IMG/VR virus record: IMGVR_UViG_3300046517_000088
Location: 1-22,287 of that record
Direction: 5' to 3' (one strand)
DNA from: a virus
Length of the DNA stretch: 22,287 nt
The notes beneath the pieces were generated by a model that had not been told where the DNA came from, searched no databases, and saw only the letters and a list, made by a program, of their open reading frames with translations. A program made the position numbers and the translations under genes. Shown piece by piece: positions 17,711 through 22,287 of this stretch. Position 1 is the stretch's first letter, and each line of letters begins with the position of its first letter.

Positions 17711-18007
17711 ATGCCTATTGAATATCCCCGACATATCCGGAAGAAGCCGGTAGGCGCTCGCGGGGGCGCGGAACTCCGGTTCAAGCTGCGGGTTGTCGCC
17801 CTTTACGGAACGGAAGAGGGCAGTTTTACCGCCCTGGCCGCGAAGATCGGCGCGCACATCTCGCAAATCTCCTACTGGATTGCCCTGCAACGCCTTCCGG
17901 CTTCTGTCGCCGTGAAGTGCGAGAAGCTGGTCGGTCCGGAAATTGCCCCGAGGGAGTGGCTGGCTCCGGACGCGTTCCCGATCAAGGAGAGCGCTCATGC
18001 CGAATGA
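17711..18007 (+). CDS. YdaS/Cro-type HTH regulator
   Basis: A 98-residue DNA-binding protein. Residues about 40-60 (TALAAKIGAHISQISYWIAL) form a helix-turn-helix, followed by RLPASVAVKCEKLVG and REWLAPDAF. That is the order seen in YdaS/Cro-like phage regulators (HTH, then a short helix, then the R-x-D/W-L-x-P-D-x-[FW] end). The N-terminus is basic. ATG at 17711 has AAGGA upstream. It is first in the rightward operon and faces the leftward promoter, the usual place of a switch regulator. Whether it represses or activates cannot be told, and it may bind the 17642 inverted repeat or the dispersed dyad. Confidence 0.75.
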   Translation: MPIEYPRHIRKKPVGARGGAELRFKLRVVALYGTEEGSFTALAAKIGAHISQISYWIALQRLPASVAVKCEKLVGPEIAPREWLAPDAFPIKESAHAE

Positions 18008-18974: not shown

Positions 18975-21635
18975 ATGTCCCATCTCTCAGTAGTGAAAGA
19001 GGACGGTCATCTGGATCGCGTCATCGAGTACTCGCTCGGTGGGTCACGCGGTTTGGGTTACGTGTCCAATAAGAGGGCGACATGGGGAAAGATGGTTGAC
19101 GTTCTTACGACTGACCGACGTACGGACATGACGACGAAGCAGTACCACGCGCTCTCTGTTGATGAAAAGCAGAAAGAGAAGATGCGTGCAGGCTTTATCG
19201 TCGGCGGCCATTGCGATGACGGCAAGCGCGTTGCTCGCGCTATCCGGACTCGCAGCTTCCTCAATCTCGACATCGACAATCTGCCTGTTGCAGATTTTCA
19301 TCAGTTTCAGTTCGACCTTGATTCCGGCGAGGGTTTCTTCGCTAACGAGTTCATCTGGCACACGACTCGTTCGCACACTCCGGAAAAGCCGAAGTTCCGC
19401 ATTATCGTTCCGCTTAGCAAGGCAATCACCGCCGAGAAGTTCGTTGCTGCATCGCGCATTCTCGCGTCGAAGTTTGATGCAACGATGGTTCACATCGACA
19501 CCGTGTCGTTCGTGCTTGCACAGATCATGTACAAGCCGCTTACGAACCGTGACGGTGAGTTCCTCGCAGGGCGCAATGCAGGATCGTTCCTCGATGCCGA
19601 CAGGATGCTCGAAGAGTTCGGTGACTGGCGCGATTACTCGAAGCTGCCGTGCCGTGAAGACGAGACCCTCGGCAAGCTGGTAGCGCCGGGGACCAAGCAG
19701 GAAAACCCGTTCGAGAAGAAGGGTATCGTCGGGGCATTCAACCGTGCGTATCCGATTGAACAGGTGATCGACGAATTCCTGCCGGACGTGTATGAACGGT
19801 CCTCGGAAGTTAGTTCCAACGGGCTCCGCTACACCTATCTGAAGTCGGAAACAGGGCAGTCGAACGGCGTGCTCGTGTATCCGGAACAGGGCTTGCTGTT
19901 CTCGCACCATTCGAGCGATCCGTGCGGAAACGGGCACTCGTACAACGCGTTTGATGCTGTCCGGCTGCACCTATACTCGCATCTCGACGATGGCGTCAAG
20001 GCTGACACGTCGCCCATGAAGTATCCCTCATTCAAGGCAATGACGGAGAAGTTCAAGGACGACGACTTTGTATCGAAGGAGATGCTTCAGGACCGCTACG
20101 ACCTCGAATCGCTGACGAAAGCCGCGATGTCCGATCTCGATGAGGAAGATGAGGATGAAGAAGAGCAGGGCGCTAACAAAGAGCCGACCGAGAGCGAGGA
20201 AGACGAACTCGGCAACGATGCTGACGACCTCGACACCGATAACTGGATTCTGAAGCTCGACCGGGGCGAGGGCGGCGTCATCAAACCGACGCTGCGCAAC
20301 GTGGTTGAGATTCTGACGAAGGATAAGCGCGTCGCGGGGATGGCTGCATACGACGAGTTCGCTCGCACTATCGTCAAGCGCCGTAACTTCCCGGCCGGTA
20401 CTCTCGGCTCCCTGGCTGGCGGCAAGAAAGTAGTTGAGAGGCGCGTCGAGGACTCTATCAAGGGCGACGCGTGGACCGACAAAGACGACGAGAAAATGCG
20501 GTACTTTCTCGGCCTTCCGGGCGGCTCGACGCACAACGGCTACCAGATCAGTCCGTCGAAGCAGGACGTACTCGGCGGGATCGAGCTTGCGGCCGACATC
20601 TTCCGCTTCCATCCGGTGAAGCAGGCGTTCGACGCGGTGAAGTGGGACGGCAAGACGCGCGTTAAGCACCTGTTCACGGAGTACCTCGGCTGTCCGGACG
20701 ACGCCTACCATCGCGAGACCGCAGAACTGGTGATGATCGCTATGGTTGCCCGCATCTACACGCCGGGTCACAAGTGGGATTACGTTCCGATTCTGGAAGG
20801 GAAGCAGGGCAAGCGGAAGTCGTACTTCATTCACACGCTGTCGATGGGTTGGTTCGCGGAAATGCGCGGTGACGTGGTGACGGATTCGAAGAAGACCGCG
20901 GAATTGCTTGAGGGCGTCATGGTTGTCGAGATTCCGGAGTTGCATACGTTCAACCGAACCGAGTCGAGCGCGCTGAAGGCATTCTTCACGGCGTACAACG
21001 ATAAGGCCCGTCCGGCGTACGGTCGTCGCACTCTCATTAACAAGCGGCAGGCTACCTTTTGGGGAACGACGAACGACAAGGAGTATCTCCGCGACAAGAC
21101 CGGCAATCGGCGCTACTGGCCTATCGAGTGTCTGGTCGGGTTCATCGACATCGACGAATTGCAGCGGAACATTCAGCAGCTTTACGCCGAGGCGCTGATG
21201 CTCTACAAGGCCATGTTGATCGACTATCCGGCCCACAAGTTGCCGCTTTTCCTGGCTGATGGAAGCGAAGCCGCTATTCGGGCGGAAGAGTTGCAGGAGT
21301 CGCGCCGTATCGAGAGCGCCGAGGATCGGGAGAAGGGGCCGCTCGAACTGTGGCTCGAAGAACCAGCTCATCCGGCGCTGGTTGACTGCCGGAAACTGTC
21401 CGATAACTTCTCGGATGACGACAATCAGGAGCCCGTCCTGCGCACGATGACCTGTTCGAAGGAGGTTTTGGAAGTACTCGCAAAAGGGGAGGACCGGAAA
21501 GCGGAGACGTTCCGACGTGCAATGTCGGGAATCAAAGGCTGGCGATTCACGAAAAATACGCACCACACACCGAGATTCGGGCCATGCAAACTGTTCGTTC
21601 GGATCGGATCGGCGGCCGATGAGCGATATGTCTAG
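18975..21635 (+). CDS. Primase-polymerase / VapE-type helicase fusion
   Basis: An 886-residue replication protein. The N-terminal primase-polymerase-like part has LDID at 98-101 (Asp99, Asp101) and HTTRSHTPEKPKFRIIVPL from 129. A central zone resembling other VapE proteins (GLLFSHHSSDPCGNGHSYNA) is followed by an acidic linker (about 385-420). The C-terminal helicase domain carries a Walker A-like GKQGKRKS (609-616), with Arg614 where Gly is usual, a Walker B-like VVEIPEL (650-656), and TTNDKEYLRDKTGNRRYWP (698-716) with the arginine finger. The start has no strong ribosome site. It probably opens and primes the origin for the polymerase encoded on the other strand. Confidence 0.9.
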   Translation: MSHLSVVKEDGHLDRVIEYSLGGSRGLGYVSNKRATWGKMVDVLTTDRRTDMTTKQYHALSVDEKQKEKMRAGFIVGGHCDDGKRVARAIRTRSFLNLDIDNLPVADFHQFQFDLDSGEGFFANEFIWHTTRSHTPEKPKFRIIVPLSKAITAEKFVAASRILASKFDATMVHIDTVSFVLAQIMYKPLTNRDGEFLAGRNAGSFLDADRMLEEFGDWRDYSKLPCREDETLGKLVAPGTKQENPFEKKGIVGAFNRAYPIEQVIDEFLPDVYERSSEVSSNGLRYTYLKSETGQSNGVLVYPEQGLLFSHHSSDPCGNGHSYNAFDAVRLHLYSHLDDGVKADTSPMKYPSFKAMTEKFKDDDFVSKEMLQDRYDLESLTKAAMSDLDEEDEDEEEQGANKEPTESEEDELGNDADDLDTDNWILKLDRGEGGVIKPTLRNVVEILTKDKRVAGMAAYDEFARTIVKRRNFPAGTLGSLAGGKKVVERRVEDSIKGDAWTDKDDEKMRYFLGLPGGSTHNGYQISPSKQDVLGGIELAADIFRFHPVKQAFDAVKWDGKTRVKHLFTEYLGCPDDAYHRETAELVMIAMVARIYTPGHKWDYVPILEGKQGKRKSYFIHTLSMGWFAEMRGDVVTDSKKTAELLEGVMVVEIPELHTFNRTESSALKAFFTAYNDKARPAYGRRTLINKRQATFWGTTNDKEYLRDKTGNRRYWPIECLVGFIDIDELQRNIQQLYAEALMLYKAMLIDYPAHKLPLFLADGSEAAIRAEELQESRRIESAEDREKGPLELWLEEPAHPALVDCRKLSDNFSDDDNQEPVLRTMTCSKEVLEVLAKGEDRKAETFRRAMSGIKGWRFTKNTHHTPRFGPCKLFVRIGSAADERYV
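19806..19820. repeat. Dispersed dyad copy 13
   Basis: GGAAGTTAGTTCCAA, one mismatch in the right arm, inside the primase-helicase gene. It is the only good copy inside a rightward gene. Confidence 0.75.
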
Positions 21636-21675
21636 GTTGAGAAGTACTTCCAAGGTCGCTTCGGCGGCCTTTTTT
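21636..21675 (+). terminator. Intrinsic terminator 1 with dyad
   Basis: Directly after the primase-helicase stop: AAGGTCGC-TTCG-GCGGCCTT followed by a run of six Ts that includes the last two stem bases, an eight-pair stem (one G-U) with a UUCG loop. A short dyad copy (GAAGTACTTC) precedes the stem. Confidence 0.88.
21641..21653. repeat. Short dyad copy 14
   Basis: GAAGTACTTCCAA, the dyad without the central unpaired base, next to terminator 1. Confidence 0.7.
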
Positions 21676-21689
21676 ATCGCCTCGATTCC

Positions 21690-21729
21690 GTTGAGAAGTA
21701 CTTCCAAGGTCGCTTAGGCGGCCTTTTTT
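21690..21729 (+). terminator. Intrinsic terminator 2, tandem copy
   Basis: A second copy of the 40-base dyad-plus-terminator unit, 54 bases after the first, with one difference (loop TTAG instead of TTCG). Two near-identical terminators in series suggest a recent tandem duplication. Confidence 0.85.
21695..21707. repeat. Short dyad copy 15
   Basis: GAAGTACTTCCAA, identical to the copy at terminator 1. Confidence 0.7.
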
Positions 21730-21740
21730 CTTGCCGATTC

Positions 21741-21992
21741 ATAACCGACCGAAAAATGAGTTATAGAGTAATTCCTTTAAAATCAATGACCTAACCGGCA
21801 TAACCGGCATAACCATGTTCGCTAGGACTCTCCGGGACCTCATAGGTTTGCACGGATTCTTACAATGCCTGTAAGGAAGCATATAAACCCTTTATCTTTA
21901 CTCCAATAATATTGGTTATATTGGTTATATTAGTTAGAATGGCTACTGGCAAGGCTTTGCGGGCTAACCGGACGGCTAACCGAACATAACCA
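21741..21992. other. Iteron cluster, candidate replication origin
   Basis: AT-rich relative to the rest, with TAACC at 21742, 21792, 21801, 21810, 21965, 21977 and 21987, and the reverse GGTTA at 21914 and 21923 (AGTTA at 21932). Two triplets repeat every 9 bases and face each other: TAACCGGCA-type at 21792-21818 and TATTGGTTA-type at 21910-21936. Between them is AT-rich DNA. This is the build of an iteron origin, next to the primase-helicase gene. A repressor or recombinase binding cluster is the alternative. Confidence 0.55.
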
Positions 21993-21998
21993 GACGTA

Positions 21999-22013
21999 GA
22001 AGTACTTCCAAGG
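21999..22013. repeat. Short dyad copy 16 beside iterons
   Basis: GAAGTACTTCCAAGG, the short form of the dyad, 8 bases after the last iteron element and without a terminator stem after it. Confidence 0.7.
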
Positions 22014-22287
22014 AAAATTACATCGACGGATCGCCTGATCTGACCTAGACTTGAATCACCGGGCCGCCATTCGAGCGGCTCGCATCTCCCTCCGCAGTCC
22101 GCAGCACAATCCCGATACCCCATACCGCCGCCCGCCAGCAAAAAGCTGTTCGGTCGAGCTTTTGCACGTCGATGCGTTCCGAGATTCGGTACACTGCGGC
22201 TCTGCCGCATCACCTGACGCGGAAAATATCGGCCAAAGGTGTCATAGCGGCCACCAGAAATTGTGCGAGACCGGGGCTCTGCGCCCT
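22014..22287. other. Non-coding right end with hairpins
   Basis: No convincing gene. Visible dyads are GCCGC/GCGGC at 22063-22079, GCAAAAAGCT/AGCTTTTGC at 22138-22165 (one bulged A, terminator-like in both directions) and GCGGC-TCT-GCCGC at 22196-22208. It may hold a structured RNA, an end/packaging site or a control region; the sequence alone does not decide. Confidence 0.4.

Follow-up and report, generated by a model that had tools for sequence, protein, structure and literature searches.

Gene order and genome end

The DNA analysed here (hereafter, the window) is the whole of record IMGVR_UViG_3300046517_000088, 22,287 bases in length and itself a genome fragment of an environmental phage. 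Looking along it, we find structural, terminase, SNF2 helicase, family-A polymerase, Enc34-type SSB and DUF2800 exonuclease genes on the minus strand and a VapE primase-helicase gene on the plus strand, in the same order as in BcepNazgul, AH2 and Enc34. The final 15 bases are identical to the end of BcepNazgul, the last 12 bases of which are annotated as its cos overhang; the window thus stops at a physical (right) genome end, with GCTCTGCGCCCT as the overhang (22,276–22,287; the chi cos being 5'-GGTGCGCAGAGC). Terminase, family-A polymerase, SSB, DUF2800 exonuclease and primase all appear in the order of the Casjensviridae, with a 12-base cos at the end; on gene order and cos end, we classify the phage as Casjensviridae-type (chi/BcepNazgul-like).

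The VapE product (18,975–21,635, plus strand; 886 amino acids), our proposed initiator, matches Pfam PF05272 (E = 7.4e-66), PHROG 256 and the solved VapE 7pds, its PHROG matches being primase/helicase families; structure prediction for it was poor (mean pLDDT 50.5; 5 sequences). Its Walker A motif (residues 609–616) reads GKQGKRKS, with R replacing the usual G before K; the close relative described below, G001, has the same motif, L242 and L247 have G..GIRKS, and DSS3-P1 and L109 have GKS. Upstream of VapE lies a small regulator-like ORF (17,711–18,007, plus strand) of weak, sub-threshold similarity to YdaS, which occupies the place that Cro-like genes hold in AH2 and BcepNazgul.

We also noted a palindrome, GAAGTNACTTC, that occurs six times in the window (2814, 4644, 6475, 9200, 14,629 and 15,957), in coding and noncoding DNA alike, against an expectation of ~0.02 estimated by us from base composition; a 10-base form is found at 21,641, 21,695 and 21,999. 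It is dense in several relatives (13 copies per 13 kb in L242, 12 in L247 and 6 per 13 kb in BcepNazgul) and was not found in the AH2, Enc34 and DSS3-P1 stretches read. We take it to be a scattered, apparently operator-like element.

An iteron array between VapE and cos

The interval between the VapE stop (21,635) and cos spans 640 bases and contains an array of short repeats. Here the initial annotation had placed ten TAACC-type elements within 250 bases, just past the primase-helicase gene; our count agrees, with nine exact copies of TAACC/GGTTA (plus strand: 21,742, 21,792, 21,801, 21,810, 21,965, 21,977 and 21,987; minus strand: 21,914 and 21,923) and a tenth element, TAACT, at 21,932 on the minus strand. 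An outlying plus-strand copy (21,742–21,746) is followed by three sets: a left set of three TAACC at a 9-base period (21,792–21,814, plus strand), a central set of TAACC, TAACC and TAACT, also at a 9-base period (21,909–21,936, minus strand), and a right set of three TAACC spaced 12 and 10 bases apart (21,965–21,991, plus strand). The two opposed triplets had been described as exact: this holds for the left one, and for the 9-base period of the other, but the third copy of the latter is ATATTAGTT, leaving two exact copies and one mismatched, so that the description was slightly overstated.

This array is far above chance. When the whole window was simulated 200 times with a first-order model, the largest TAACC cluster per 252 bases was 3, versus 9 observed, and simulation with the region's own dinucleotides (n = 2000) gave a mean of 0.84 and a maximum of 6. 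Since our automatic word finder chose GTACTTCCA in the window, the case for this array rests on the direct TAACC counts. Rfam returned no match.

Two stretches of the region are AT-rich (21,750–21,789 and 21,870–21,939). A nearest-neighbour profile places the least stable duplex of the entire record at 21,872–21,941, overlapping the central set; the lowest-stability 60-base stretches begin at 21,872–21,882 and extend into the minus-strand repeats, making this a candidate unwinding element. Local GC skew in the window is confounded by gene direction.

Two plus-strand intrinsic terminators precede the array, one directly 3' of VapE (21,652–21,676) and one at 21,706–21,731. Given these, the repeats might be read as operators or other transcription-regulatory sites; a further suggestion, that a stem-loop origin acts here, comes from pRN1, which requires such a structure 3' of its primase-helicase gene (PMC4234260). 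Against this, there is no sigma-70-like promoter in 21,000–22,287, only small unsupported ORFs lie between array and cos in the window record, and folding is unremarkable (z = −0.87 for 21,815–21,913 and −0.41 for its G001 counterpart), leading us to reject the stem-loop and to regard both proposals as extremely improbable. As a separate observation, each terminator sits in one copy of a tandemly duplicated 46-base block (21,636–21,681 and 21,690–21,735) that also carries a AGAAGTACTTCCAAGG element; a single copy is present in the stretch of G001 that was read.

Conservation in a close relative

An exact-pattern scan for the spaced triplet returned 92 stretches, of which we recognised only G001 (IMGVR_UViG_3300048918_000104) as relevant; when the others were searched locally by tblastn, with the VapE of the window as query, no VapE was found. 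G001 is 59,371 bases long with an exact terminal repeat of 127 bases, and is therefore complete or nearly so; its VapE is 89% identical to that of the window. All ten sites are retained at a single constant offset, without an indel: seven are exact TAACC, including the outlying copy, the central set with its TAACT is the same, the right set keeps its positions, and the left set reads TAACT, TAACC, TAACG. Across 21,909–21,983 the two sequences agree at 71 of 75 positions. Loss of the repeats from relatives with the same replication genes would have spoken against an origin; we find the opposite.

The proximity of the array to cos brings in another explanation, namely that the repeats form a terminase-binding (cosB-like) packaging site. 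In the window the array lies within 285 bases of cos, and in AH2 (L106), BcepNazgul (L107), L113 and L140 a few copies of the respective word are found beyond cos too, such that the array spans it. The distance is not kept, however, being 510 bases in G001, where a 76-amino-acid ORF intervenes (6811–7041 of L006, minus strand). This ORF has a good ribosome site, no Pfam match and no counterpart in the window. Similar arrays also follow VapE at many loci that have no cos-like end nearby.

Arrays with other words in wider relatives

We next consider post-primase regions more broadly. These were drawn from two 80-locus scans, one anchored on the primase and one on the exonuclease, together with reference phages, giving 114 non-redundant regions (one further scan of genome contigs yielded two relatives only). 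Each was given a repeated-word score covering both strands, with values of at least 7 taken as strong. Such scores were reached by 60 of the 114 regions, mostly behind PrimPol-type primases, versus 0/114 coding controls, and 66 of the 114 exceeded all 60 of their dinucleotide shuffles. Behind VapE genes, in a 78-locus scan that overlaps the first set at a few loci (e.g. L242 = L400), the corresponding figures were 49/78 and 0/78. As each region's word was selected for its high frequency there, the density profile arises partly by construction, and it is the shuffles and coding controls that carry the claim. The remaining regions (54/114 and 29/78) scored below 7; part of these have no cos gap or noncoding gap behind the primase.

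The word itself differs by lineage, examples being AGGTCCGAA in the AH2 group, CATACCGAA in L113, ATGCCGAA in L140, GTACCAGAA in the L212 group, GCAGTACAC in L242 (VapE type), ATTCGGACC in BcepNazgul, TATTACAAA in Enc34 and GTGTTCCA in DSS3-P1, the last picked by eye in a region where the automatic finder detected nothing significant. With near-identical words removed, 31 of 32 VapE words and 38 of 40 PrimPol words occur in both orientations, and the trimer ACA is enriched 2.5–2.9 times among the words of both sets. Spacings between same-strand copies peak at 9 bases (34 in the VapE set, 24 in the PrimPol set) and at 12 bases (19 and 14); these are raw counts, and word length (7–9) combined with the overlap filter can favour spacings of ~8–9, less so 12. 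In L212, L196 and L242 a 9-base set faces a 12-base set ~45–50 bases away, as it does in the window at ~33 bases.

Which protein reads the word?

Among 40 PrimPol-type loci, with four background genes allowed for, the more alike two primases are, the more alike are their words (partial r = 0.45, permutation p = 0.002), although linkage can explain part of this correlation, as the primase adjoins the array and correlation drops with distance from it. The words do not follow the terminase: partial r is 0.07 (p = 0.07) for TerS and 0.08 for TerL. Neither co-variation with terminase nor a constant distance to cos is thus observed, and we consider a packaging site of cosB type very unlikely.

It is also conceivable that the region is an origin whose repeats are read by the small Cro/YdaS-like protein encoded 5' of VapE, which would then recruit the helicase. 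Identity of the Cro-like gene follows the word (partial r = 0.51), albeit over fewer pairs and likewise affected by linkage. One or two word copies are found ~3 kb 5' of the primase stop in L212, L216, L217, L244 and L183 (the GTACCAGAA group plus L183), near the expected start of a regulator-primase operon, and possibly reflect autoregulation. Over all lineages, however, words are not enriched near the operon start (0.6–0.7 per kb, versus 15–18 per kb in the gap), no upstream copies are present in the window, AH2 or BcepNazgul, and the family match of the window's own regulator-like ORF falls below threshold. We judge this reading to be unlikely.

We favour VapE itself as the probable reader of the TAACC word, by analogy with SaPI Rep and Cch2, which bind their own downstream iterons (PMC7581432), and because VapE always precedes the array here. 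Within the VapE set the global word correlation is weak, and a segment-wise comparison found no VapE segment that tracks the word; for PrimPol primases, partial correlations by segment were weak in a first set and, in a second, high from residue ~181 to the end and lower at the N-terminus. Natural word/initiator pairs may help here: the primases of AH2, L140 and L113 are 63–73% identical and their words differ, from which recognition residues could be mapped.

A candidate replication origin

Taking these observations together, we propose that 21,742–21,991 is the replication origin of the phage, with the upstream-encoded VapE as the putative iteron binder (probability roughly 0.8, from sequence evidence). 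The iteron origin put forward in the initial annotation is supported by the ten sites kept in G001 and by the lineage-specific arrays found at the same place in dozens of phages; to it we add the cos terminus, the third iteron set, the change of word between lineages and a layout like that of SaPI/PICI satellites. Our best reading, drawn by analogy with those satellites, is an origin served by a self-loading primase-helicase. VapE would bind the TAACC iterons, with the oppositely oriented sets serving to load a pair of helicase rings; the AT-rich, low-stability duplex at 21,872–21,941 would melt and admit the helicase, and the primase part would supply primers to the family-A polymerase that the phage encodes.

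Whether this amounts to a general grammar we regard as evenly balanced: tailed phages whose primase-helicase is of the VapE or PrimPol-DUF5906 type would have their origin directly 3' of the gene, built from opposed 9-base and 12-base iteron sets whose word turns over fast with the initiator.

Comparison with known systems

Within the Casjensviridae, BcepNazgul, AH2, Enc34 and DSS3-P1 share the gene order and primase-to-cos gap of the window but differ in their words, and the place of VapE is taken in AH2, BcepNazgul and Enc34 by a primase of PrimPol-DUF5906 type. The chi and AH2 genome papers make no mention of an origin or of such repeats. The pRN1 plasmid resembles the window in that its ORF904 belongs to a repressor-primase-helicase operon closely followed by an essential region (PMC4234260); its origin, however, is a ~100-base stem-loop, and none was found here. 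The putative origin of SCCmec Cch2 has short iterons directly 3' of the gene for a self-loading helicase, whose C-terminal domain binds them (PMC7581432), but comprises only three AAGTG iterons, with a helicase of another family, in a staphylococcal cassette.

The closest layout is that of the SaPI/PICI origins, which lie immediately 3' of pri-rep, have an AT-rich region enclosed by two iteron sets and can drive replication of a plasmid (PMC6092414). The window likewise has its array just behind a primase/initiator-helicase gene, iteron sets on either side of AT-rich DNA and an element-specific word (PMC6092414, PMC7581432): the left plus-strand and central minus-strand sets correspond to the two satellite sets, with AT-rich DNA (21,870–21,939) between them and over the central set. 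It differs in having a third set after these and an outlier, in its 9-base and 12-base spacings, in a ~59-kb phage genome, in an array beside cos, in a VapE fusion protein and in being a candidate known from sequence. The downstream-iteron layout has so far been described mainly in phage satellites, and we consider its breadth among tailed phages, the cos-side site and the word-independent spacing to be the interesting parts. Were the general grammar to hold, a layout that has been called peculiar to the PICI satellites would be widespread in a large group of phages, and the satellites may have acquired it from them; finding it in chi-like phages, and broadly behind the VapE genes of phages, would link satellites with phages.
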